NCBI GenBank assembly: GCA_029932915.1
Contig: JAOZPE010000019.1
Coordinates: forward strand, 1-56,916
Reading direction: 5' to 3'
From: Candidatus Krumholzibacteriia bacterium
GTDB taxonomy: Bacteria; Krumholzibacteriota; Krumholzibacteriia; JAJRXK01
DNA: 56,916 nucleotides
The notes below the pieces were generated by a model, which worked only from the letters and a program-made list of their open reading frames with translations, did no database searches and had not been told where the DNA came from. Made by a program: the position numbers and the translations under genes. This document shows positions 7,784 through 22,030 of the stretch, piece after piece (position 1 is the stretch's first letter; the number at the start of each line of letters is the position of its first letter).

Positions 7784-8797
7784 ATGGACCCGATTCTGCA
7801 ACTGCGCGGTGTCCGGCGCAGCTTCGGGCGTATCCAGGCGGTCGACGGCGTCGATCTCGATGTGCCGCGGGGGTCGATCTACGGCATCCTCGGTCCCAAC
7901 GGCGCGGGCAAGACCACGACCATACGGATGATCCTGAACATCTACACGCCCGACGAGGGGGAGATCCTCTTCGACGGGCGCCGGCTCGACCGGCGCGCGA
8001 CCGACCGCATCGGCTACCTGCCCGAGGAACGGGGGCTCTACAAGCGCCTGAAGGTCGGCGAGCATCTCGAGTACATGGCCCGGCTGAAGGGAGTGCCGGC
8101 CGGTGAGGCCCGCCGGCGGGTGGGGCAATGGCTCGAACGTTTCGAACTCGCCGACCGTGCCATGGCCAAGACGAACGAGCTGTCCAAGGGGATGCAGCAG
8201 AAGGTGCAGTTCATCGGAGCGATCATCGCCGAGCCGGAAGTGGTGGTGCTCGACGAACCGTTCAGTGGACTCGATCCGATCAACGTGGAGCTCCTGCGGG
8301 AGATCATCGCCGAGATCCAGGACAGCGGCCGGACCGTCCTCTTCTCCACCCACGTGATGGAGCAGGCCGAGCAGATCTGCGACCACATCTTCCTGATCCA
8401 TCAAGGCCGCAAGGTCCTCGACGGAAGGCTCGATGAGATCGTCCAGGACTATCCCGTCGACAAGGTCCGTCTCGTCGGCGACTTCCAGGAGTCTGCGTTG
8501 CGCGCTCTTCCCCACGTCACCACGGTGCGGCGGGACGGCAACGAATGGAAGGTGTGGCTGGACGAGGAGGGCTCGCCCCAGCAGCTGCTCACCGAGTTGG
8601 TGAAGCTGGGCCGGGTCGATCTCTTCTCCGCTTCCCGTCCTCCCCTCAGTGAGATCTTCATCCGCGAGGTCAAGGGAAGCGGAGCCGCTTCTCCGCCGGC
8701 CGGGATGTCCGGCGGAGGGCCGGACGGTGCCGGTGGGGGACGGATGGAAACGACGGAATCCACTTCTTCCATCGGGCGAGAGGGAGGGATGCGATGA
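7784..8797 (+). CDS. ABC exporter ATP-binding protein (NatA/YhaQ-like)
   Basis: 337 residues. The nucleotide-binding domain has Walker A GPNGAGKT (37-44), signature LSKGMQQ (133-139), Walker B VVVLDEP (153-159) and switch His190. The Q-loop position reads GYLPEERGLY, where Glu replaces Gln, a variant seen in the NatA/YhaQ-type subfamily. A C-terminal ~100-residue extension ends in a Gly/Pro-rich tail. It should power the membrane partner encoded directly after it. The substrate is unknown; relatives export sodium, peptides or toxic compounds. The ribosome site CTGGAGGAC precedes the ATG, 24 bp after alaS, so read-through from that operon is likely. The stop overlaps the permease start as ATGA. 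Confidence 0.93.
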   Translation: MDPILQLRGVRRSFGRIQAVDGVDLDVPRGSIYGILGPNGAGKTTTIRMILNIYTPDEGEILFDGRRLDRRATDRIGYLPEERGLYKRLKVGEHLEYMARLKGVPAGEARRRVGQWLERFELADRAMAKTNELSKGMQQKVQFIGAIIAEPEVVVLDEPFSGLDPINVELLREIIAEIQDSGRTVLFSTHVMEQAEQICDHIFLIHQGRKVLDGRLDEIVQDYPVDKVRLVGDFQESALRALPHVTTVRRDGNEWKVWLDEEGSPQQLLTELVKLGRVDLFSASRPPLSEIFIREVKGSGAASPPAGMSGGGPDGAGGGRMETTESTSSIGREGGMR

Positions 8798-10062
8798 ACA
8801 AGCTGTGGCTGATCGTCCAACAGGAATACCGGGTGCGGGTGCGTTCGCGCTCGTTCATCATCTCCACCCTGCTCGCTCCGCTCTTCATCCTGGCCATCAC
8901 CGTCGGTCCGGCGCTCTTGGCCACGCGTTCGTCCTCCTCCGATCACGTGGTGATGGTGGTCGACGAGACCGGGCAGCCCGGACTCTTCGAGAAACTGCAG
9001 CACATCGTGGGCGACCCGGCGGCGGGCGGCTCGTCCGGCATCCACTTGCTGTTGTACGGCGGCGGGGGGCCCGTCGACTCGGTGCGGGTGCGTCTGGCGC
9101 CGGCGGTCGAGGACGGCCGGTACGACGGGTTGTTGGTGCTGGGTCCCGATTTCCTCGACTCGGGCAAGGCGGTCTTCTATGCCTCCGACCCGAGCGGTCT
9201 GATGTGGACCGACGCAATCGAATCGGCCCTGGACGAGTTGTTGCTTCGCCATCGCATGGCTCAACGCGGCGTTCCCGAGGAGGATCTGGCGGCGTTGATG
9301 GACAAGGTCCACTTCCGCACCGCGCCCATCACCGGTGAGGCCGAGCGGGAAGGGGCCATGGAATCGCGCCTGGTCATCGGAATGGTGCTGATCCTCCTGT
9401 TGTACATGATGATCCTCACCTATGGGGTGCAGTCGATGAATGCGGTCATCGAGGACAAGGCCTCCCGGGTGGTGGAGGTGATGCTGGCCAACGTCACGCC
9501 GACCATCCTCATGTCGGGCAAGATCGTCGCCGCTGCCCTGGTGGGGATCACACAGTTTGTCATCTGGGGGGTACTGGTGGTGGGCGTGTTGGGCCGTGGC
9601 CCGGCGATGTTGCCCGCCGAGGTCGATCTCTCCTTCCTCACCTTCGGGCTGTGGGCCTCGTTCACCATCTTCTTCATCCTGGGCTACCTGCTCTTCGCCT
9701 CGCTGTACGCGGCCATCGGATCGATGTGCAACAGCATGCAGGACGCCCAGCAGTTCCAGATGCCGGTGACCATCCTGGTGATCGTTCCCGTCCTGCTCCT
9801 GCAGGTGGTCATCCAGGATCCCAACGGAACCCTGGCGGTGGTGTTCTCCCTCATCCCGGTGTTCACCCCCATCATGATGTTCATCCGCATCGCCATGGGC
9901 AGTCCGCCGCTGTGGCAGGTGCTCGTGAGCATCGCCCTGCTGGCGGTGACGGTGGCGTTGATGGCGAAGCTCACCGGCAAGCTCTTCCGCCTGTCCATCC
10001 TCAGCTTCGGCAAGGCCCCGAGCTGGCGTCAGGTGCTGGAGATGTTGCGCTCGCCCGAGTAG
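8794..10062 (+). CDS. ABC-2 type permease (NatB/YhaP-like)
   Basis: 422 residues. An N-terminal cytosolic RVRVRSRS stretch is followed by one membrane helix (about 22-44), a large extracytoplasmic loop (about 45-190) and a cluster of five or six helices in the C-terminal half. This is the ABC-2 layout of NatB-type exporters. The segment YGVQSMNAVIEDKASRVVEV matches the conserved cytosolic coupling region (EEK..R..E) that docks on the ATPase. The ATGA overlap with the ATPase gene makes them a pair. Substrate unknown. A short GC-rich hairpin (10070-10083) follows the stop. Confidence 0.9.
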   Translation: MNKLWLIVQQEYRVRVRSRSFIISTLLAPLFILAITVGPALLATRSSSSDHVVMVVDETGQPGLFEKLQHIVGDPAAGGSSGIHLLLYGGGGPVDSVRVRLAPAVEDGRYDGLLVLGPDFLDSGKAVFYASDPSGLMWTDAIESALDELLLRHRMAQRGVPEEDLAALMDKVHFRTAPITGEAEREGAMESRLVIGMVLILLLYMMILTYGVQSMNAVIEDKASRVVEVMLANVTPTILMSGKIVAAALVGITQFVIWGVLVVGVLGRGPAMLPAEVDLSFLTFGLWASFTIFFILGYLLFASLYAAIGSMCNSMQDAQQFQMPVTILVIVPVLLLQVVIQDPNGTLAVVFSLIPVFTPIMMFIRIAMGSPPLWQVLVSIALLAVTVALMAKLTGKLFRLSILSFGKAPSWRQVLEMLRSPE

Positions 10063-10069
10063 CCTTCCG

Positions 10070-10083
10070 GCCCGCTGGCGGGC
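10070..10083 (+). terminator. Weak hairpin after ABC permease
   Basis: GCCCG, loop CTGG, CGGGC; no T-run follows. Possible end of the M16-alaS-ABC transcript. Confidence 0.3.
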
Positions 10084-10206
10084 GCTCCCCAGCTGCCGGG
10101 ACGGCCCCGTTTCGCGGCGATGCGCGCCATGGGACCGGCCGGCGGAGGGATCCTCTCCTTTCGCCGGCTGACGCTTTTTCCTACCATTTCCTCTCGTGTC
10201 TGGGGG

Positions 10207-10233
10207 GAGAGAGCGGGCCCGAGCGCCTCTCTC
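10207..10233 (+). other. Leader hairpin upstream of sat-cysC
   Basis: GAGAGAGCG (10207-10215) can pair with CGCCTCTCTC (10224-10233), with one bulged base and an 8-nt loop, about 45 nt upstream of the ATG. A -10-like TACCAT lies at 10182-10187, so the hairpin would be near the 5' end of the mRNA. It does not occlude the start codon. Its function is unknown; regulation of PAPS synthesis is a guess. Confidence 0.4.
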
Positions 10234-10278
10234 GAGCCGTCCTCGCCGTGTCCTTGCCTCGAATCAACGGATGACATC

Positions 10279-11985
10279 ATGCCTCTACAGAATTCCACCC
10301 GCAGCGATGGATCGCTCATGGTGGGCGGCGAGGAAGCCGCCGAACTGCTGCAACAGAGCCGCGATTGGCCCTCCCATCGGTGCAGCGAGGTCGAGCTGTG
10401 TGACCTGGGCCTGCTCATGAACGGGGCCTTCGCCCCGCTCACCGGTTTCCTCGACCGCGCCGACACCGAGGGTGTCATTCGCGAGATGCGCCTGCAGAAC
10501 GGCCATCTGTGGCCCATGCCCATCAATCTGGAACTGGGTGAGGAAGAGGCGATGGCCGCCGAGAAGGCCGGTCACCTGGTCCTGCGCGATGTGGAGGGAA
10601 CCGTCCTGGCGGTGGTCGAGGTCTCCGAGGTGTGGCCCTACGACAAGAAGACGATGGCCGAGGAGATGTTCGGTCACAGCGACGAGGCGCATCCCTTCGT
10701 GGCGAGGATGATGGCCAGCCGCGCCACCCATCTGGTGGGAGGGCGCGTCCGGGGGCTGCAGATGCCTCGCCAATACCTCTTCCCCGAACTGCACCACACA
10801 CCGGCCCAACTGCGCGCATTCTTCGCCGAGAAGGGCTGGGACAAGGTCGTCGCCTTCCAGACCCGCAATCCCATGCATCGCGCGCACTTCGAGATCACGC
10901 GCATGGCGGCCGAGAAGGTCGGTGCCAAGGTGCTCCTGCATCCGGTGGTGGGCGTGACCCGCCCCGGGGACGTGCCCGCGGTGATCCGCGTGCAGTGCTA
11001 CCAGGCCCTGCTGCCGCGCTACGGCGAGGACAACGCGGCGCTCTCGCTCCTGCCGCTGGCCATGCGCATGGCCGGGCCGCGCGAGGCCTTGTGGCATTCA
11101 CTCATCCGCCGCAACTACGGAGCCACCCACTTCATCATCGGACGCGATCACGCCGGTCCGGGCATGAACTCGCAGGGCAAACCCTTCCACGGCCCCTACG
11201 ACGCCCAGGAGCTGGTCGAGAAGTATTCCGATGAGATCGGCATCACCGTCATTCCCCTGCAGATGGTGGTCTACGATCCCCAGAAGGACGGCTACGTCAC
11301 CCAGGACGAGGCCAGCGAGGCGTCGAAGAACTACCAGCTCTCGGGAACCGAGCTGAGGCGCCGCCTGCGCGAAGGGGAGGAGATCCCCGAGTGGTTCACC
11401 TTCCCGGAGGTGTCACAGATCCTGCGCCGGGCCTATCCGCCGCGCAACCGCCAGGGTTTCACCGTGTTCTTCACCGGCCTGTCGGCCTCGGGGAAGTCGA
11501 CGGTGGCCCAGGCCCTGATGGCCAAGCTGCAGGTGGAGACCGGCCGGGACGTGACCCTGCTCGACGGTGACGTGGTGCGCACGAACCTCTCCTCGGAGCT
11601 GGGTTTCTCCAAGGAGCACCGCGACCTGAACATCCAGCGCATCGGCTACGTGGCCAGCGAGATCACCCGCCACGGCGGCATCGCCCTGTGCGCGCCGATC
11701 GCTCCGTACGACGAGGTTCGCAAGGAGGTGCGCCGGATGGTCTCCGACCGCGGCGGCTTCACCCTGGTGCACATCAGCACGCCCCTGGCCGAGTGTGAGC
11801 GGCGCGACCCCAAGGGCCTCTATGCGAAGGCCCGGGCCGGCGTGATCAAGGGCTTCACCGGCATCGACGATCCCTACGAAGCACCCGAGGACGCCGAGCT
11901 GAGCATCGACACCACCTCGATCGGACCGCACGAGGCGGCGCAGATGATCGTCGATCACCTGCGGGCCGAAGGATACCTCGACTGA
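10279..11985 (+). CDS. Bifunctional ATP sulfurylase / APS kinase (PAPS synthase)
   Basis: 568 residues. The N-terminal domain (about 1-390) is ATP sulfurylase: QTRNPMHRAH at 194-203 holds the HxxH nucleotide motif and GRDHAGPG begins at 288. It joins sulfate and ATP to APS. The C-terminal domain (about 395-568) is APS kinase with P-loop GLSASGKST (400-408), LLDGDVVRTNL, GFTGIDDPYEAPE and the PKGLYAKARAG substrate segment, giving PAPS. The active-site residues I can see are intact in both domains. The ATG at 10279 was chosen because family similarity starts soon after it; the in-frame upstream 53 residues are low complexity. No other sulfur-assimilation gene is nearby, and the gene faces a PAPS-type sulfotransferase across a 141-bp convergent gap, so sulfate donor supply for sulfation is a plausible role alongside cysteine synthesis. 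Confidence 0.95.
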   Translation: MPLQNSTRSDGSLMVGGEEAAELLQQSRDWPSHRCSEVELCDLGLLMNGAFAPLTGFLDRADTEGVIREMRLQNGHLWPMPINLELGEEEAMAAEKAGHLVLRDVEGTVLAVVEVSEVWPYDKKTMAEEMFGHSDEAHPFVARMMASRATHLVGGRVRGLQMPRQYLFPELHHTPAQLRAFFAEKGWDKVVAFQTRNPMHRAHFEITRMAAEKVGAKVLLHPVVGVTRPGDVPAVIRVQCYQALLPRYGEDNAALSLLPLAMRMAGPREALWHSLIRRNYGATHFIIGRDHAGPGMNSQGKPFHGPYDAQELVEKYSDEIGITVIPLQMVVYDPQKDGYVTQDEASEASKNYQLSGTELRRRLREGEEIPEWFTFPEVSQILRRAYPPRNRQGFTVFFTGLSASGKSTVAQALMAKLQVETGRDVTLLDGDVVRTNLSSELGFSKEHRDLNIQRIGYVASEITRHGGIALCAPIAPYDEVRKEVRRMVSDRGGFTLVHISTPLAECERRDPKGLYAKARAGVIKGFTGIDDPYEAPEDAELSIDTTSIGPHEAAQMIVDHLRAEGYLD

Positions 11986-12042
11986 GATCGAAGATGGGTA
12001 GCGGCATGGGAAGCCCCAGGCGAGCACCCCGGGTGGGCGGCC

Positions 12043-12057
12043 GCAGCGCGCCGCTGC
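12043..12057. terminator. Hairpin between convergent sat-cysC and sulfotransferase
   Basis: GCAGCG (12043-12048), loop CGC, CGCTGC (12052-12057), in the 141-bp gap between two convergent genes. Symmetric and GC-rich with no T-tract, so a bidirectional terminator is plausible but unproven. Confidence 0.4.
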
Positions 12058-12126
12058 CGTGGAAAGCCGTAGACGAGCGGCCCCATGCGAAGGTGGAGAC
12101 CGGCGGCCGTGTGACGGGTGCCGGCG

Positions 12127-12984
12127 CTAGGCCGTCTCCTCGATACGGTCGTAGCCGAGCTGACGCATCCACGGCCGCTCGCGCACCTGCCGGTAGAAGT
12201 CGAGCAGTTCCCCATCGGCGAGGAAACGATAGCGTCCCTGCGGCTTCACCAGGGCGGCGGCACGGTCGATGCCTTCGGCGGCCTCGATTCCCAGGAAAGC
12301 AGCGATCTCCTCGAGCTTCTCGCGGGGGGAGGCGAGCAGGTCCTCGTAGTTGAGGACGAACTCGTCGATCTCGTTCTCCCGGCGGTTCCAGGCGTGGAGA
12401 TCGAGGTAGCCCTCCCAGAGCTGGAAGGCCCGGATCAGGTGGAGACAGCGGGGTGAAGCGAAGCGGTTGAGATGCGGGTCGGTGAGGAAACGCCGGCGAT
12501 CCTTCCCGGTGAGTTCGTTGCGGGCACGCCGCCACAGGCTGGCTGCCACGTCCACGCCGTTGCGATGGACGGTGATCGCCCTGGCCCGGGGGAAGACCTC
12601 CTTCCACAGCGGCCAGGTGGCCGTCGTGCGGGGATCCTTCCAGCCCCACAGCAGAGGACCGTTGCCCGCGAAGGCCCGCAGACGCTTGCCCCCCACATAG
12701 CGCCGGAGGAAGGAGATGCTGTCCACGCGCGAACGCAGGGACTCGACCATGGTGCGGCGGCAATCGGGTTCCTCGAGCAGCCAGCGCATCGGCGTGGGCT
12801 GATCCCAGCTTCCGTGGGCCCGGGCCAGGAGCCAGTCGTTCGCGTCGATGATGAAGACCGATTCGTAGTGCTCCTCGAGATTGCGTCCCAGGTGCATTCC
12901 CATCTCACCGAGCATCTGGGCGAGCAGGGTGGTACCGGACCGGTGCATTCCCAGCAACAGCACCGGGTCGTTGCGTTGCAGCAT
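12127..12984 (-). CDS. PAPS-dependent sulfotransferase family protein
   Basis: 285 residues, no signal peptide. The N-terminal PAPS 5'-phosphosulfate loop is LLGMHRSGTTLL (G12-T19 core) and the 3'-phosphate site follows as RAITVHRNGVDVAAS (about 134-149). WGWKDPRT (113-120) is a shared landmark of the bacterial branch. It should transfer sulfate from PAPS to a hydroxyl or amine of a small molecule, glycan or lipid; the acceptor cannot be read from sequence. It is the last gene of a minus-strand operon, 11 bp after the DUF4833 gene, and converges on the PAPS synthase gene. Donor-making and donor-using enzymes are therefore genomic neighbours although not co-transcribed. Confidence 0.85.
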   Translation of the reverse strand: MLQRNDPVLLLGMHRSGTTLLAQMLGEMGMHLGRNLEEHYESVFIIDANDWLLARAHGSWDQPTPMRWLLEEPDCRRTMVESLRSRVDSISFLRRYVGGKRLRAFAGNGPLLWGWKDPRTTATWPLWKEVFPRARAITVHRNGVDVAASLWRRARNELTGKDRRRFLTDPHLNRFASPRCLHLIRAFQLWEGYLDLHAWNRRENEIDEFVLNYEDLLASPREKLEEIAAFLGIEAAEGIDRAAALVKPQGRYRFLADGELLDFYRQVRERPWMRQLGYDRIEETA

Positions 12985-12995
12985 GCCTTCTCCTA

Positions 12996-13547
12996 CTACT
13001 GGTGCGGAACGATGCGCTCCTTGACTTCGACCCCCGACTGAAGGTCACGCCCGTAGAGTTCGAGATATGCAACCTTGGGGACCTTCTTGTTGTCGGCCAG
13101 TTGCACGAACACACGGTCGAGCACCGCACTGACGCCGTCGATACGGGTGGTGGCGACCCACTGGCCGTCGATGCGGACGACCTTCAAGGTGCGGCGGATC
13201 TTGACCGTCATCCTCAGCAGGACCGATCCATCGTCGAGTTCGTGGGTCTGGAAACCGTAGGCCAGCTTGCGCTCCATGTAACTGAGCTTCTTACGCCGGC
13301 CGTCTTCGGCCTTGCGGATCCAGTAGCCGATGATGGGCTGGTCGGGATCGAGCGAGCCCTCGTCCTTCAGGACCGCATCGTATTGGATGATGTTGGCATT
13401 GAGGGAACGCTCGATGTGGAAGAGCGGCTGCGTATCTTCGTGCCATTCATCCGCACTCGCTCCAAGGGGGACAGTCATGGCGGCCACCACCAACAGGACA
13501 TGGAATCCCGTCGAGGGCGGTGCGTGTGGGCGTGGGACGGAGATCAT
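12996..13547 (-). CDS. DUF4833 domain protein, exported
   Basis: 183 residues with a signal peptide (hydrophobic FHVLLVVAAMTVPLGASA, cleavage probably near 32). The mature part matches my memory of DUF4833: IERSLNANIIQYDAV, then a PDQPIIGYWIRKAEDGRRKKL stretch and SYMERKLAYGF, ending in a beta-rich half with KIRRTLKVVRIDG. The biochemical function of the family is unknown. The start overlaps the upstream TPM gene stop as ATGA, and the sulfotransferase follows after 11 bp, so it belongs to the lemA operon. Its strongly basic surface could bind a polyanion, but that is speculation. Confidence 0.75.
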   Translation of the reverse strand: MISVPRPHAPPSTGFHVLLVVAAMTVPLGASADEWHEDTQPLFHIERSLNANIIQYDAVLKDEGSLDPDQPIIGYWIRKAEDGRRKKLSYMERKLAYGFQTHELDDGSVLLRMTVKIRRTLKVVRIDGQWVATTRIDGVSAVLDRVFVQLADNKKVPKVAYLELYGRDLQSGVEVKERIVPHQ

Positions 13548-14026
13548 CTCGGGCCTTTCCGTGGGCTGCCCAGGGAGATCTCATTGGGCAGCTCGTTCAC
13601 GTCTGCATCATCTCCAGCATAAGGGAAGACGTCGTGCAGTTGTCTGCCGATTTCCTCGATCGCAGCGATCATGCCACCTGCGAAGTCCCCGTCGCGGAAG
13701 TGTGAGGAAAGTTGCTCCGCAACGGCGTCCCAGAAGCCCTCATCGACCCTTTCGTGGATTCCCCGGTCTCCGAGCACGGCGAAGAGACGGTCGGCGGTGG
13801 CCAGATAGATGAGGACTCCGTTGCGCTCGGCCGTCTCGGTCATGCCCAGGTCTTCGAACACCTCGCGCCCGCGCAGATAGGGATCGCCGCCGGGACAGCG
13901 CTTCTCCAGGTGGACGCGGATCTCACCGCTCGTCTGTTTCTCGGCCGCCTCGATGGCGGCGACGATGGCCTTCGATTCCTCCTCGGTGAAGAATCTCGCC
14001 GGATCGTTGCTGCGTCGTGGGCTCAT
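13544..14026 (-). CDS. TPM-domain protein, soluble form
   Basis: 160 residues without signal or membrane segment. The TPM (DUF477) fold is recognisable from ARFFTEEESKAIVAAIEAAEKQTSGEIRVHLE, then ERNGVLIYLATADRLFAVLGDRGI and the helical EQLSSHFRDGDFAGGMIAAIEEIG. It corresponds to the second, cytosolic-looking TPM protein that often accompanies LemA and the membrane-bound TPM protein. The function is unclear; TPM domains have been linked to photosystem repair in plants and to envelope assembly in bacteria. It ends in an ATGA overlap with DUF4833. Confidence 0.8.
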   Translation of the reverse strand: MSPRRSNDPARFFTEEESKAIVAAIEAAEKQTSGEIRVHLEKRCPGGDPYLRGREVFEDLGMTETAERNGVLIYLATADRLFAVLGDRGIHERVDEGFWDAVAEQLSSHFRDGDFAGGMIAAIEEIGRQLHDVFPYAGDDADVNELPNEISLGSPRKGPR

Positions 14027-14092
14027 TTCGCCATGCTCCTGCGCCGGGGATCCACCCGATTGCGCTTGCGTTTCGGGTTCCGTCAGCTCTTG

Positions 14093-14992
14093 CTACCAGC
14101 TTCCACTGGCGCCGCCTCCGCCGAAGCCTCCACCGCCGCCGACGAAGCCGCCGCCGCTGAAGCCTCCACCACCACTTCCGCCGCCGAAGCCGCCCCCGTA
14201 GAAGATGAAGGGACCGCCGCGGCCACCCCGGCCACCGCGGGAGAAGATGCGCACCAGGAAGATCAACAGGAAGACCCACATCCACACCGGCATGTCGTTC
14301 TTCCGCTTGCGGTCGCCGAGGGCCCGGCCGCTGCCCTCGTACTCGCCGCGGCTGGCGGCCATGAGCGCGGTCACTCCGGCCTGGACCGCTCCGTAGTGGT
14401 CACCTTGCCGCAGACGGGGAACGATCTCCTCGGTGATGATGGTGTGGGAGATCAGATCGGTGATGGCACCTTCCAGTCCGTAGCCCACCTCGATGCGCAG
14501 CTTGTGTTCGCGGTCGTAGAAGGCCAACAGGATCCCGTTGTCGCGGTCCTTGCGGCCCATGCCCCACTGCTCGGCCACCTGGTGGGTGAAGGAGGTCACC
14601 TCCTCACCGCCCAGGGTGGGGAAGATGGCGACCACGAGCTGGTTGCTGGTCTCGCGCTCGAATTGCAGCAGGGCTTCCTCGAGCCGCCGCTTCTGTGCTG
14701 CGTTCAGCCAGCCGGCCCCATCGTGGACGTAGCGCGGCGGGGCCGGTGGGATCGCCACCTCCGTTCCCATCTCCGCCGTCGCCGCCATGGCCGCCGGTAC
14801 GGTCCCGCCGGTACCGGTCTGCGCCGCCGGCTCTTCGGCCGACCGGAGCGCGTTGGCTGGCGTCGCGGCCATGGCGAGACCGACCATCAGGCTCAGCACG
14901 GCCGCCACGGCGAGGGCCACCGCGGAGACGCGCGCGCGGCCCGGGCGTGACCGGAGGGGTGTGGAGTGGGTGGAGGGGGAGAGGAGGCCCAT
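14093..14992 (-). CDS. TPM-domain membrane protein with Gly-rich tail (YgcG-like)
   Basis: 299 residues. Signal peptide or anchor near 20-45 (VSAVALAVAAVLSLMVGLAMA), a Thr/Ala-rich linker, and a periplasmic TPM domain (about 85-215: YVHDGAGWLNAAQKRRLEEAL, then NGILLAFYDREHKLRIEVGYGLEG). One membrane helix (MPVWMWVFLLIFLVRIF, about 237-253) leads into a C-terminal run of Gly, Phe and Ser ending GGASGSW. This layout is diagnostic of the YgcG/TPM family. Its start is 1 nt from the lemA stop, so it is tightly co-transcribed. The cyclic pairing LemA plus TPM is common in bacteria and is thought to concern the envelope. Confidence 0.88.
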   Translation of the reverse strand: MGLLSPSTHSTPLRSRPGRARVSAVALAVAAVLSLMVGLAMAATPANALRSAEEPAAQTGTGGTVPAAMAATAEMGTEVAIPPAPPRYVHDGAGWLNAAQKRRLEEALLQFERETSNQLVVAIFPTLGGEEVTSFTHQVAEQWGMGRKDRDNGILLAFYDREHKLRIEVGYGLEGAITDLISHTIITEEIVPRLRQGDHYGAVQAGVTALMAASRGEYEGSGRALGDRKRKNDMPVWMWVFLLIFLVRIFSRGGRGGRGGPFIFYGGGFGGGSGGGGFSGGGFVGGGGGFGGGGASGSW

Positions 14993-14993
14993 C

Positions 14994-15587
14994 TCAGAAC
15001 TTCACCTGGGGAACCTTCTCTGCACCCTCTTCGGCCTCGAAGTACTGCTTCCTGGAGAAGCCGGTCATCTTGGCGATGAGGCTGGTCGGGAAGCGACGGA
15101 TCTTCGTGTTGAAGGCGCGGGCCGCCTCGTTGTAGTGCCGCCGTTCGACGGCGATGCGGTTCTCCGTTCCCTCCAGTTGACTCTGCAGGGCCAGGTAGTT
15201 CTTGTTGGCCTTGATGTCGGGATAGCGTTCGACGGTCACCAGCAGCCGCGACAGTGCGCTGCTCAACTGACCCTGTGCGGCCTGGAAACGCTGGAAGGCC
15301 TCCGGATCGTTCACCACGTCACTGCCGATGGTGGCCTGGACCTGCGTGGCCTTCGCCCGCGCCTCGATCACCGCGGTGAGGGTCTCCTTCTCGAAGTTCG
15401 CGGCGCCCTTGACCGTCTCCACCAGGTTGGGGATGAGATCGGCGCGCCGCTGGTAGACGTTCTCCACCTGGGCCCACGCGGTGTCCACCTTCTCTTCGAG
15501 GGTGACCATCGAGTTGTAGGTGGAGCACGCGGAGAAGCCCACGAGGATGACGAAGAGAACGAGAATGAGGGGAAGCGACTTCTTCAT
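14994..15587 (-). CDS. lemA: LemA family protein (probable lipoprotein)
   Basis: 197 residues. The N-terminus MKKSLPLILVLFVILVGFSAC carries a lipobox-like FSAC before the conserved STYNSMV; LemA proteins are membrane-anchored at this end. The core is the typical coiled LemA helical bundle: KVDTAWAQVENVYQRRADLI, PNLVETVKGAANFEKETL, then the closing IAKMTGFSRKQYFEAEEGAE and the family-typical C-terminus PQVKF. The role is unknown beyond envelope association. It is the first gene of the operon lemA-TPM-TPM-DUF4833-sulfotransferase, with AGGAG about 10 nt before the ATG. It is divergent from the lytic transglycosylase with only 57 bp between starts. Confidence 0.93.
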   Translation of the reverse strand: MKKSLPLILVLFVILVGFSACSTYNSMVTLEEKVDTAWAQVENVYQRRADLIPNLVETVKGAANFEKETLTAVIEARAKATQVQATIGSDVVNDPEAFQRFQAAQGQLSSALSRLLVTVERYPDIKANKNYLALQSQLEGTENRIAVERRHYNEAARAFNTKIRRFPTSLIAKMTGFSRKQYFEAEEGAEKVPQVKF

Positions 15588-15629
15588 GGCTGGACGGCTC
15601 CTGGAAATGAGAGGCTCGACCGTTCGATG

Positions 15630-15638
15630 TGGTATACT
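15630..15638 (+). promoter_or_regulatory. Extended -10 promoter directly at the lytic transglycosylase start
   Basis: TGG followed by TATACT (15633-15638), a TGn-extended -10 box. Only 6 nt separate it from the ATG at 15645, so transcription would begin at or next to the A of the start codon. No ribosome site is present. No good -35 box is seen at 16-18 bp. Confidence 0.6.
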
Positions 15639-15644
15639 TAGACC

Positions 15645-16796
15645 ATGAATTCAAGACTCGGCAAGATTCTTCTCGGTCTGGCGCTGGCTCTCCTCCTGGT
15701 TCTGCTCTTCGACCTGCACGAACCCCTTCTGCCCTGGGTGTTCTCCTCGTCGGCGACGCCGGTCGATCCCTCCTTGACCCCGTGGGGCACATGGGACGAT
15801 TCCCTCGTGCATCTGGAGAGTCGCCTGGAGGAAGTGCAACGGGAGAACGATCGCTTGCAGGAGCGTCTCGACCATCTGAGCGATCTGAGCGAGCGCCTGC
15901 AGCAGCGCCTGGACGAGGTGGCGGCACTGCCCCGTTTGCGTCCGCTGCAGGACTATCCCTTCCCCGATTCGGTCAGCCTGTGTGGAGAGGCGGTCTCCCT
16001 GGACGATCCGACCGCCCACGAGCGCTTCGAGAGCGAATTCAACCGCTTCCTGGTGAACCGTCACTGGCTGATCACCTGGATGCGGCGCAGCCGCGAGGTC
16101 TTCCCCTGGCTGGAGGCGAAGCTGGCGCAGGAGGGGATGCCCGACGATCTCAAGTACGTGGCGGTGATCGAGAGTTCACTCGATCCGCGGGCCACCAGTC
16201 CGAAGGGGGCCGCCGGCTGGTGGCAGTTCACCCGGGACACCGGACGCCGTTACGGCCTGCATCGCACCCGCAGCGTCGATGAGCGAAGGGATCTCCACGA
16301 GGCCACCGATGCCGCCCTGCGCTACATGAGGGAACTGTACGAGGAGTTCGGTTCCTGGGCCCTGGTGCTGGCCGCGTACAACTCCGGCGAACGGCGGGTG
16401 CGTCAGGCGATCGAGGATCAGGGGGAGAGCGACTTCCACGAGCTGTACCTGCCGCGGGAGACCGAGGCCTACTGGTACAAGGCGGCGGCGGCCAAGCTCT
16501 TCTTCGAACACCCGGGCGACTACGATCTGGAGATGCCGCCGGACGGATGGACCCCGGTGGTGTGCGACACCCTGCTGCTCTCGCTCGGCCGGGAGACACC
16601 GATCCGCGACATCCTCGAGGGCAGCGGTCTGAGCTACAAGGATTTCAAGCACTACAATCCGGCCTACCGGCGTCCGCAGCTTCCGGCGGGGAAGCACCGG
16701 CTGGCCCTGCCACGGCCCTGCGCCGCCCGCATCGCCGCGCGCTATCCCCGCGCCGGCAAGCTCACTCTTGCTGAGACCACACCGCCCGGGCCGTGA
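15645..16796 (+). CDS. Membrane-anchored lytic transglycosylase (SLT/MltD-like)
   Basis: 383 residues. An N-terminal membrane anchor (about 7-30) and a coiled coil (about 55-95, heptads of L and E/R) precede a goose-type lysozyme SLT domain. The catalytic Glu is E176 in VIESSLDPRATSPKGAAG, followed by WWQF and later VLAAYNSGERRV. It cleaves the glycan strands of peptidoglycan to 1,6-anhydro ends. A LysM-like or linker region follows, LLSLGRETPIRDILEGSGLS. The protein ends without further membrane segments. There is no ribosome site and a -10 box lies just upstream, suggesting a leaderless mRNA. The last 35 bp overlap, tail to tail, the gene for the HEAT-cyclophilin lipoprotein on the other strand. 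Confidence 0.9.
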   Translation: MNSRLGKILLGLALALLLVLLFDLHEPLLPWVFSSSATPVDPSLTPWGTWDDSLVHLESRLEEVQRENDRLQERLDHLSDLSERLQQRLDEVAALPRLRPLQDYPFPDSVSLCGEAVSLDDPTAHERFESEFNRFLVNRHWLITWMRRSREVFPWLEAKLAQEGMPDDLKYVAVIESSLDPRATSPKGAAGWWQFTRDTGRRYGLHRTRSVDERRDLHEATDAALRYMRELYEEFGSWALVLAAYNSGERRVRQAIEDQGESDFHELYLPRETEAYWYKAAAAKLFFEHPGDYDLEMPPDGWTPVVCDTLLLSLGRETPIRDILEGSGLSYKDFKHYNPAYRRPQLPAGKHRLALPRPCAARIAARYPRAGKLTLAETTPPGP

Positions 16797-18780
16797 AGGT
16801 ATCGCCCACCTGGATCGAGTCGACCACTTCCATTCCCTCGACCACCTGGCCGAAGAGGGTGTAGCGCGCGTTCAGGTGGGGTTGGGGTGAATGGGTGATG
16901 AAGAGCTGGCAGCTTCCGGTGTCCTTGCCGTTGGTGGCCACGCCCACCGCGCCGCGCCGGTACCGCAGGGGACTCCACTCACTGCGCAGCAGGTAGCCGG
17001 CATCTCCCCAACCCGAGCCCAGCGGATCGCCCCCCTGGATGACGAAGTTGGGGACCACCCGGTGGAAGTCGAGCCCGTCGAAGAAACCGGCGTCGGCCAG
17101 GCGGGCGAAGCTCTCGCAGGTCTGCGGGGCGATGTCGAAGTACAGGTCGATGACGATGCGTCCCCGTGAGGTGTCCAGGATCAGTTCACGGGCATCGCTG
17201 CTGGCCACCACCGGCGGTTGCTTCGGCGAGCGCTGGACGGGGCGGGTGTCCAGCAGGATGGAGCGGACGGTGGGCAGGTGCGCGGCGTCCGCCTCCGGGA
17301 GGATCAGCTCCAGGGCATTGCGCGCCGCCACGCGGAGCCGTCGGTCATCGGTGGCCAGGGCCTTCTCCAGGAGCGGACGGGCTGCCTCCGCCCGCAACCG
17401 TCCCAGGGCGACCAGGATGGCCTCCATCACGTCGACGTTGCCCGCCGCCTCCCATCCGCGCCAGCTCTTCATGAGCGGGCCGATCGCGTCCGCGCTGCCC
17501 AGCTTGCCCAAGCCGTCGGCGGCGGTGGCCGCGACCACCGGATCGCTGTCCTCCAGCGCGTCGTGCAGCAGGTGGAGGGCTCCGGCTCCACCCAATTCGA
17601 CCAGTCCCTGGACGGCGAAGGGACGCAACTGGACGTCCTCGCGCGAAGCCAGGGCGACGCGCAGCCGGTCCAGCGCGCCGGGTGCATGGACCTTCCCCAG
17701 CAACTGGAGACAGGTACCCCGCACGAAGGCCGATGGATCGTTCAAGCCCTCCAGCAGTTGGGGGGCTGCCTCGCTGCCCCGGGTGGCGGCCAGGGCGGAG
17801 CAGGCCGCCCGGCGTACCATGGTGCACGAGTCGGCGCAGGCGGTGATGAGCGCTTCGACGGGCTCGACCGGGGCCAAGGCCTCCAGCGCTTCGAGAACCG
17901 CGGTTCGCACCTGGAAGTTCTCATCCTCGAGGAGTTCGAGCAGATCCCCCTGGGCCTGGCGGGCCTCCAGCTGCCCCAGGCTGCGCGCGGCATTCACCCG
18001 CACCGTCCATTCCCCTTCGCGCAGGCGCTCGCGCAGCGCATCGATCCCGAGCCTTCCCGCCTCTCCTCCCATCCGTCCCAGGCCGCGCGCGGCGAAGGCC
18101 CGGACGGTGGGATCCGAATGGCCGAGCATCTCGATGAGCCGCCGGGCCGCCCTCTCATCGGGCACCTTCTCCAGGGCGTAGGCCGCCCGCCACGCCACGC
18201 TCGGCTCGGCGTCCCGGCTGGCTTCGATGATGCGGTCGACCATGGTGGAGTCGGCCAGCAGGGCCAGGGCCTCCAGGGTCTGCTCGCGGACGAAGGGATG
18301 GGGGTGGTGCAGGGCCCGGACGATCTCCTCGGCGGTGCCCGGTTGGCCCACACGGCCCAGGGCGAGGATGATCTCGCCGAGCACCTCGGGTGAGCCCCTC
18401 CGGCCGGGGGTTCCCGTCGAACTCAGTTCCCTCTCCGCGCCGGCCAGCAGCTCGACCGCCGAGGCCGAGGTGGGGATGAGTCCCAGGGCGAAGGCGGCCT
18501 CGCGGCGCACCTCGGGGCGCCGGTCGCGCCGGAGCCGCTCGCCCAGGCGGGCGACCGCCTCGGGCCGGCCGATGCGTCCCAGGGCCAGGGCCGCCGCCTT
18601 GCGGACCCGGTACGGCCCACTCTCGAGAAGGACGTAGAGACTGTCGCCGGGGATGACGCGGGCGTCCTCCCAGCGGTGGATGTCCGCCAGGCGGGCGGGA
18701 AGGTCGGTCCGGCTGCAGGAAGACACGCTCGCGGCGACCATGGCGGCCACGAGCAGGAAGAGGACGCGGCGAGTCGGCAT
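16762..18780 (-). CDS. HEAT-repeat lipoprotein with C-terminal cyclophilin PPIase
   Basis: 672 residues. The signal peptide ends in SVSSC, a lipobox, so it is probably a membrane-anchored periplasmic protein. Residues ~50-500 are a continuous series of HEAT-type helical repeats (recurring VRRAAA.ALG, VRAFAARGLG, VRVNAARSLG, FVRGTCLQLLG). Residues ~515-672 are a cyclophilin: GRIVIDLYFDIAP, DFHRVVPNFVIQGGDP, GSCQLFITHSPQPHLN, YTLFGQVVEGMEVVDSI. Cyclophilins isomerise prolyl bonds; the HEAT scaffold should hold a partner or unfolded client. The ATG at 18780 has AAGGAGGA 5 nt upstream and a good promoter. I know cyclophilins fused to other modules, but a HEAT array this long ahead of one is unusual. 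Confidence 0.9.
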   Translation of the reverse strand: MPTRRVLFLLVAAMVAASVSSCSRTDLPARLADIHRWEDARVIPGDSLYVLLESGPYRVRKAAALALGRIGRPEAVARLGERLRRDRRPEVRREAAFALGLIPTSASAVELLAGAERELSSTGTPGRRGSPEVLGEIILALGRVGQPGTAEEIVRALHHPHPFVREQTLEALALLADSTMVDRIIEASRDAEPSVAWRAAYALEKVPDERAARRLIEMLGHSDPTVRAFAARGLGRMGGEAGRLGIDALRERLREGEWTVRVNAARSLGQLEARQAQGDLLELLEDENFQVRTAVLEALEALAPVEPVEALITACADSCTMVRRAACSALAATRGSEAAPQLLEGLNDPSAFVRGTCLQLLGKVHAPGALDRLRVALASREDVQLRPFAVQGLVELGGAGALHLLHDALEDSDPVVAATAADGLGKLGSADAIGPLMKSWRGWEAAGNVDVMEAILVALGRLRAEAARPLLEKALATDDRRLRVAARNALELILPEADAAHLPTVRSILLDTRPVQRSPKQPPVVASSDARELILDTSRGRIVIDLYFDIAPQTCESFARLADAGFFDGLDFHRVVPNFVIQGGDPLGSGWGDAGYLLRSEWSPLRYRRGAVGVATNGKDTGSCQLFITHSPQPHLNARYTLFGQVVEGMEVVDSIQVGDTFTARAVWSQQE

Positions 18781-20764: not shown

Positions 20765-22030
20765 ATGAGCCACGATCGAAGCCTTCCCTACCTGGTGGGT
20801 GGACTGCTGGGAGCCACCGTCGGTCTGATCGCGTTGGTGGTACTGCTCGTCCGTGCCTTCTCGCCGGTATTCTCCTCTCCGCAGGAGGGCAGGGTCGAGC
20901 CCGCGGCCCACCTCATCGGAGTCAGCGCCAGCAGTGGCGGGGCCTTCCCGGTCGCAGTGGAGGATTCCATCTCCGCCGGACGGGGCAACGCCATCGTCCA
21001 GGCCTCGCGCCGGGCCAGCCCGGCGGTGGTGGGCATCACCGTCATCTACGACCGCTTCTCTCGGGTCCCCGCCAACCCGCTTCAACAGTTCTTCTCCGGG
21101 CGCGGCTTCCGGCAGGGAGGCGTGATCCGCCAGCCCTACCAGAAGCTCGGCAGCGGGGTCATCATCGATCCGCGCGGCTACATCGTGACCAACAACCACG
21201 TGCTGGGCGATTCCAAGGACGCCCGCATCTTCCTCACCCTGGGCGACGGACGTCAGTACCGGGCCGAGGTGGTGGGCCGGGCTCCCAGCTTCGACCTGGC
21301 CCTGCTGCGCTTCAGCGAAGCGGTGGAGGACCTGCCGGTGGCGGTGCTGGGCGACAGCGACCGGCTCGAACCCGGCCAGTGGGCGATCGCCATCGGCGCG
21401 CCCTACCGCTACCTGCTGGACGATCCGGCTTTGACCATCACCGTGGGGGTGATCAGCGCGCTGCACCGCGATCTCGAGCCGGGCCAGGGAAGTGCGGTCA
21501 ACTACCTGGACATGATCCAGACCGACGCGGCGATCACCCAGGGCAACAGCGGCGGGGCATTGGTGAACAGCCGGGGCGAGGTCATCGGCATCAATACCTT
21601 CATCATCAGAAGCCGTGGTGGAGGAAATCTCGGCGCCGGTTTCGCCGTGCCCATCAACCGGGTGCGCTGGGTGATGGACGAGATCCTCCAGTACGGTGAG
21701 TTGCGCCCCCGCTTCGCCGGCTTCCATGGCGCGGTGCTCGACCGGCGGCTGCGCTACCTGCTGCAGTTGGACGATTCGATGACCGGTCTGTTCGTCGGAG
21801 AGGTGTGGGCCGGTTCCCCGGCCGAGAAGGCGGGTCTGGAGCCCGGCGACGTCATCCGGGCCATCGACGGGCGGCCGATCCTGCGCAAGATCGATTTCAA
21901 CCGCACCATCCTGGAAGCACGGGTGGGAAGCCGGTTGCATCTGAGCGTCCAGCGGGGAGACGAGATCTTCGACACCGACCTGACCCTCGCCGAACGTCCC
22001 CGGCCCAAGCCCTCGTCCCAGGGTCCCTAG
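20765..22030 (+). CDS. HtrA/DegQ-type serine protease with one PDZ domain
   Basis: 421 residues. An N-terminal membrane anchor (about 9-31) places the protease in the periplasm. The trypsin-like domain has the full catalytic triad: H145 (TNNHVLG), D177 (SFDLALL) and S262 (TQGNSGGAL). One PDZ domain (about 310-405; SPAEKAGLEPGDVIRAIDGRP) follows. It degrades or refolds damaged envelope proteins; a single PDZ and an uncleaved anchor resemble DegS, but the loop sequence cannot decide that. The ATG at 20765 has AGGGAG 4 nt upstream. The sequence between the anchor and the protease is Ser/Ala/Gly-rich. A terminator-like hairpin follows (22072-22089). Confidence 0.93.
   Translation: MSHDRSLPYLVGGLLGATVGLIALVVLLVRAFSPVFSSPQEGRVEPAAHLIGVSASSGGAFPVAVEDSISAGRGNAIVQASRRASPAVVGITVIYDRFSRVPANPLQQFFSGRGFRQGGVIRQPYQKLGSGVIIDPRGYIVTNNHVLGDSKDARIFLTLGDGRQYRAEVVGRAPSFDLALLRFSEAVEDLPVAVLGDSDRLEPGQWAIAIGAPYRYLLDDPALTITVGVISALHRDLEPGQGSAVNYLDMIQTDAAITQGNSGGALVNSRGEVIGINTFIIRSRGGGNLGAGFAVPINRVRWVMDEILQYGELRPRFAGFHGAVLDRRLRYLLQLDDSMTGLFVGEVWAGSPAEKAGLEPGDVIRAIDGRPILRKIDFNRTILEARVGSRLHLSVQRGDEIFDTDLTLAERPRPKPSSQGP

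Follow-up and report, generated by a model that had tools for sequence, protein, structure and literature searches.

A conserved LemA–TPM–TPM gene trio lies beside a putative lineage-specific sulfation insert in a Krumholzibacteriia genome

Does a sulfotransferase gene at the end of a LemA–TPM gene run tell us what LemA and TPM proteins do? Contig JAOZPE010000019.1 of a Candidatus Krumholzibacteriia bacterium (assembly GCA_029932915.1; a draft genome of 2.92 Mb, 98% complete, in which this is contig 43) carries five consecutive genes: lemA, two TPM-domain genes, a gene for a DUF4833 protein and a gene for a sulfotransferase (ST). The original prediction took them for a five-gene operon, with ST as a handle on the function of LemA and TPM. 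We analysed the whole stretch of 56,916 nucleotides, referred to here as the window, and compared it with related genomes. Most probably, the run consists of two separate modules placed head to tail, a conserved LemA–TPM1–TPM2 trio and a lineage-specific sulfation insert that includes DUF4833. As judged from sequence comparison, the trio is a known and common bacterial envelope module, while the placement of DUF4833, ST and the neighbouring bifunctional ATP sulfurylase/APS (adenosine 5'-phosphosulfate) kinase, Sat-CysC, is specific to this lineage.

Results

Five closely packed genes of known families

The five genes were confirmed on the minus strand with the predicted gaps and ATGA overlap, and every product scored above its Pfam cut-off:

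14994–15587, minus strand: LemA family protein, 197 aa (Pfam PF04011, E 1.7e-60; PDB 2etd, E 2.6e-46)
14093–14992, minus strand: TPM1, a BA41-like secreted or membrane TPM protein, 299 aa (Pfam PF04536, E 3.4e-36; PDB 7tbr, E 7.8e-29, and 5anp (BA41), E 1.1e-27; tail comparison)
13544–14026, minus strand: TPM2, a BA42-like stand-alone soluble TPM protein, 160 aa, with the tail DDADVNELPNEIS (Pfam PF04536, E 1.3e-25; PDB 4oa3 and 2lt2 (BA42), E 8e-34, tail included)
12996–13547, minus strand: DUF4833 protein, 183 aa (Pfam PF16117, E 3.3e-32; AlphaFold2 mean pLDDT (predicted local distance difference test) 85)
12127–12984, minus strand: ST, a cytosolic sulfotransferase dependent on 3'-phosphoadenosine 5'-phosphosulfate (PAPS), 285 aa (Pfam PF13469, E 1.4e-18; PF00685, E 4.6e-11)

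LemA covers its whole family profile (positions 1–149 of 149; 203.6 bits against a cut-off of 26.2) and is alike over its full length to the LemA of Thermotoga maritima (2etd), but falls below the NCBIfam equivalog cut-off for MamQ (129.6 of 250 bits); MamQ and LemA are treated in excerpts of PMC3905215 and PMC4902198. Its N-terminus holds a hydrophobic segment and a possible lipobox cysteine (GFSAC). A lipobox-like cysteine is found in the window LemA (15520–15587) and, as GFSGC, in that of the same-family genome G008 (locus L011); the other N-termini compared lack it (13 compared, some with uncertain starts).

TPM1 and TPM2 match PF04536 with 124.4 and 90.2 bits (cut-off 22.1). They have the TPM domain in common with Psb32/TLP18.3-type proteins, but the score of 39.3 bits stays below the Psb32 cut-off of 160. 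TPM1 has a second hydrophobic segment and a glycine-rich tail ending in GGGGASGSW, and resembles BA41 of Bizionia argentinensis (5anp), the GGGGASGxW tail included. TPM2 resembles BA42 of the same organism (4oa3/2lt2), down to its ELPN-IS tail. Across loci L011–L026, TPM1 proteins share a conserved C-terminal GGGG-A(S/T/R)Gx-W tail, which the window protein (14093–14150) and BA41 match, and TPM2 proteins an acidic NEL(P/S)(D/N) tail, matched by the window protein (13544–13600) and BA42.

From lemA to ST, the coordinates give gaps of 1 nt and 66 nt, a 4-nt ATGA overlap (−4) and a gap of 11 nt. A shuffle-based scan of 11800–15900 carried little information: it gave no terminator above chance between the five genes (its one weak terminator-like stem falls within TPM1, and shuffled sequences lead one to expect 1.8) and detected nothing promoter-like. 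Both flanking genes run on the plus strand, Sat-CysC ending at 11985 and a lytic transglycosylase-like (SLT) gene starting at 15645, so a single transcription unit could include no gene beyond these five. From the sequence, an operon is plausible. A shared transcript may form by read-through from the lemA promoter, which would mean shared expression rather than a shared pathway. The GC content of about 62–70% over 10000–15600 is in line with the neighbourhood and hence gives no compositional sign of recent transfer.

The trio recurs without DUF4833 and ST

The comparison set comprised 80 genomes of the phylum Krumholzibacteriota, four of them from the window's own family. LemA was matched in 67 and TPM in 22 of the 80. 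In 20 of the 22 TPM-bearing genomes, a LemA and a TPM gene are no more than 1.5 kb apart (counted by hand from the match tables; one of the LemA matches, in G027, is weak), and in the two exceptions, G070 and G073, the TPM gene stands at a contig end. Of 32 DUF4833-bearing genomes, 29 belong to other groups; TPM was found in 13 of the 32, and LemA stands beside it in all 13. The predicted recurrence of LemA and TPM as a pair is therefore borne out in the phylum and beyond it. The complete trio, with LemA, TPM and TPM adjacent on the same strand, is present in 13 of the 80 phylum genomes and recurs across genera.

DNA fetched around the 12 other phylum trios contained no match to DUF4833, ST or Sat-CysC, and the set of five genes recurred neither at these 12 trios nor in the fetched flanks of 33 DUF4833 loci. 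Within the family, the locus of G008 reads HEAT-cyclophilin, SLT, LemA, TPM, TPM, ABC-2 permease, ABC ATPase and AlaS, which is the order of the window minus Sat-CysC, ST and DUF4833. A second family member, G009, keeps SLT, ABC-2, ABC and AlaS and has no LemA or TPM in the slot; the insert is thus missing from this locus in both relatives. Between SLT and the ABC-2 permease of G009, a fasciclin-domain gene (L085:931–2037) takes the place of LemA/TPM.

These comparisons bear on the most obvious alternative, that all five genes form one functional operon in which ST and DUF4833 belong to a LemA/TPM pathway, for example by sulfating an envelope component that LemA/TPM assembles. Tight spacing in a single direction, with no terminator above chance and opposite-strand genes on either side, argues for this reading. 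However, the gene set occurs once in 80 phylum genomes, no DUF4833 locus among the 33 has LemA/TPM, the G008 locus does without the extra genes and a relative of ST is encoded in G009, a genome free of LemA and TPM. We consider it unlikely. Of the operon originally predicted, the close same-direction packing stands, but the assignment of DUF4833 and ST to LemA/TPM function does not.

DUF4833 usually stands alone

The DUF4833 protein matches PF16117 over the full profile (1–138 of 138; 112 bits, cut-off 23.1) and has a probable signal peptide, as read by eye. Its AlphaFold2 model is all-beta. Compared with the PDB, the model gave a best Foldseek E of 0.05 with TM-scores below 0.3 and a best VIA Z of 3.2, so we assign DUF4833 to no fold family, without thereby claiming a new fold. 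Among PDB sequences, a five-member DUF4833 profile had no match, and a search of open-access papers for "DUF4833" returned none.

DUF4833 was found at five places in four of the 80 phylum genomes. Of these, the four that lie outside the window have no LemA match on their contigs. In named genomes we collected 33 loci from Krumholzibacteriia, Gamma- and Deltaproteobacteria, Myxococcales, Terriglobia, Nitrospiraceae, Elusimicrobiota/Endomicrobia and Bacteroidota; four of these are the phylum places already counted, and two (L039 and L040) share a genome, which makes 32 genomes. The original prediction had pointed to DUF4833 neighbourhoods as the place to look for lemA and TPM. Profile searches of the fetched flanks (0 to 10 kb per side) at E 1e-3 found LemA, either TPM type or ST at none of the 33 loci, the ST profile being a single sequence, and DUF4833 is thus found apart from LemA/TPM even though 27 of the 32 genomes have LemA elsewhere. 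Among the 114 proteins encoded next to DUF4833 (at most two per side), no Pfam family matches more than five. Since its neighbours have so little in common and its loci are free of LemA, TPM and ST, DUF4833 looks like a stand-alone, secreted all-beta protein that is usually alone in genomes. At two Endomicrobium loci (L043:5578–5964 and L047:10444–10917), DUF4833 is directly followed by a related small protein with a DUF2914 match.

The sulfotransferase and its likely PAPS supply

ST matches Sulfotransfer_3 (PF13469) from residue 7 onwards, the N-terminal loop included, with 68.4 bits (cut-off 27). By eye it has no signal peptide. Near its N-terminus lies a GMHRSGTT loop, which we take to be PAPS-binding. 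With 20.6 of 500 bits, ST is far below the equivalog cut-off for the nodulation sulfotransferase NoeE, and phmmer found no match to it among PDB sequences at E 0.01. At E 1e-3, ST matches occur in nine of the 80 phylum genomes, but the sole close full-length relative beyond the window genome is in G009 (45% identity), where both GMHRSGTT and the stretch KDPRTT are kept. The G009 gene is on another contig than the slot described above, near flavin oxidoreductase and biopterin-hydroxylase-like genes and without DUF4833, and this genome has neither a LemA nor a TPM match. A close relative in a LemA/TPM-free genome and a G008 trio that lacks the insert leave little of the idea that ST is a handle on LemA/TPM.

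The likelier partner of ST is PAPS supply, since its gene stands tail to tail with the only APS kinase gene of the genome:

10120–11985, plus strand: Sat-CysC, bifunctional ATP sulfurylase/APS kinase (NCBIfam PRK05537, 811.9 bits, cut-off 669); the start is uncertain, at 10120 by the longest open reading frame or at 10318 by codon score

ST and Sat-CysC each pass the curated cut-offs of their families, Sulfotransfer_3 enzymes and Sat-CysC PAPS synthases. ST is also the only PF13469 protein of the window genome, and no PF01507 protein was found in this draft. With a sole APS kinase and a sole PF13469 protein, and no PF01507, ST would be the most obvious user of the neighbouring PAPS, as far as the draft genome and the PF13469 family searched can indicate.

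The relatives G008 and G009 have CysD plus CysN-C genes in place of Sat-CysC. Their PF01507 matches were considered as CysH PAPS reductases and rejected, as they are CysD beside CysN-C; the missing PF01507 in the window genome is therefore no contrast with its relatives, and no CysH-type match was found in any of the four family genomes. A CysQ-like gene that follows Sat-CysC in G002 scored below both the CysQ and the HisN cut-offs and was not used as support for sulfation.

The insert could in principle be a two-gene DUF4833–ST unit, in which the secreted DUF4833 protein would accept or handle the sulfated product. The 11-nt gap and a ribosome-binding region of ST that overlaps the end of DUF4833 are consistent with this, but the pairing is absent from the other 33 DUF4833 loci, as far as the single-sequence ST profile detects it, and the ST relative in G009 lacks DUF4833. 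We regard such a unit as distinctly unlikely.

Genes around the trio

Three further features frame the run:

8794–10062, plus strand: ABC-2 permease (Pfam PF12698, E 3.1e-49; synteny), which borders the variable slot and comes directly after TPM2 in G008
15645–16796, plus strand: SLT protein (Pfam PF01464, E 7.5e-25), divergent from lemA, a neighbour kept in the family and also present at the G008 trio
16762–18780, minus strand: HEAT-repeat/cyclophilin protein (Pfam), whose position next to the LemA trio is conserved in the phylum

The HEAT-repeat/cyclophilin gene adjoins the LemA trio at six loci (the window, L011, L018, L021, L024 and L025), of which one has only the cyclophilin part on its contig and one has the second TPM cut off. 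At four of the six it is directly upstream on the same strand, with gaps of 19, 21, 21 and about 51 nt, and its product is a possible partner of LemA/TPM. The SLT gene is beside the trio twice, in the window and in G008. In several phylum genomes, a gene for an HtrA-type trypsin/PDZ protease (20765–22030 in the window) shows synteny with the LemA trio; the genes that recur with it in this cluster are presumably TruA and transaldolase-like, names we assigned from the look of their sequences. As associations, the HEAT-cyclophilin, SLT and HtrA neighbours point to a role in assembling envelope proteins or controlling their quality.

An extended −10-like element, TGGTATACT (15630–15645, read by eye), ends just ahead of the ATG of the SLT gene, so the SLT mRNA may be leaderless.

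Discussion

How would two modules work side by side? In the trio, LemA and TPM1 would face outward from the cytoplasmic membrane, embedded in it or attached to it, with TPM2 in the cytosol, a topology read by eye. Together, the three proteins may help to assemble or quality-control membrane protein complexes. We infer this as their most likely role from the topology, from the neighbouring genes and from papers on TPM proteins: excerpts of PMC11237479 and PMC12419801 argue for TPM as an assembly factor of membrane complexes and doubt its role as a phosphatase, and in Campylobacter jejuni, according to part of PMC8267372, deletion of cj1484c, which encodes a TPM-domain product, lowers cbb3 oxidase activity. 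In an excerpt of a study on Flavobacterium columnare, LemA and TPM-domain genes are both listed among those up-regulated in an sppA mutant. In the insert, ST is preceded by DUF4833 and lies tail to tail with Sat-CysC. Going by the chemistry of their families, Sat-CysC would make PAPS out of sulfate and ATP, and ST would transfer sulfate to an acceptor.

Several points weigh against two separate modules. A gap of 11 nt, an ATGA overlap and no terminator speak for a single transcript, and genes that are transcribed together may also work together. Behind TPM2, some of the 12 trios compared have short flanks, about 5 nt in L021 and about 360 nt in L013, and many DUF4833 contigs are short, with L031, L055 and L062 ending at or near the gene. 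As the family is represented by only four genomes, a young functional link confined to the genus would not be visible. Lastly, the insert may have been gained in the window genome or lost in G008.

Such a young link is what a further reading assumes, in which the LemA–TPM–TPM trio of this genus recruited its own sulfation system (Sat-CysC, ST and secreted DUF4833), so that a sulfated envelope product came under the same control and is handled by LemA/TPM. We think this very unlikely. That TPM2 serves ST enzymatically, for instance by hydrolysing the by-product 3'-phosphoadenosine 5'-phosphate as half of a local soluble-TPM-phosphatase/ST pair, is hardly credible: TPM2 is BA42-like, and titles in reference lists, among them that of PMC9478572, give phosphatase activity for BA42-type and ATPase/ADPase activity for BA41-type TPM domains, but TPM2 occurs in 12 trios without ST, and a phosphatase role is the very one questioned in the excerpts cited above.

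Two modules placed head to tail remain our preferred reading, and under it DUF4833 and ST would have been added locally and would give no clue to LemA/TPM function. This removes a misleading clue, as ST would not be informative about what LemA and TPM do. If the recruited-sulfation reading were true, sulfation would be linked to LemA/TPM, and in this lineage only. The HEAT-cyclophilin, SLT and HtrA neighbours and the conserved TPM tails would be the better handles on LemA/TPM function.

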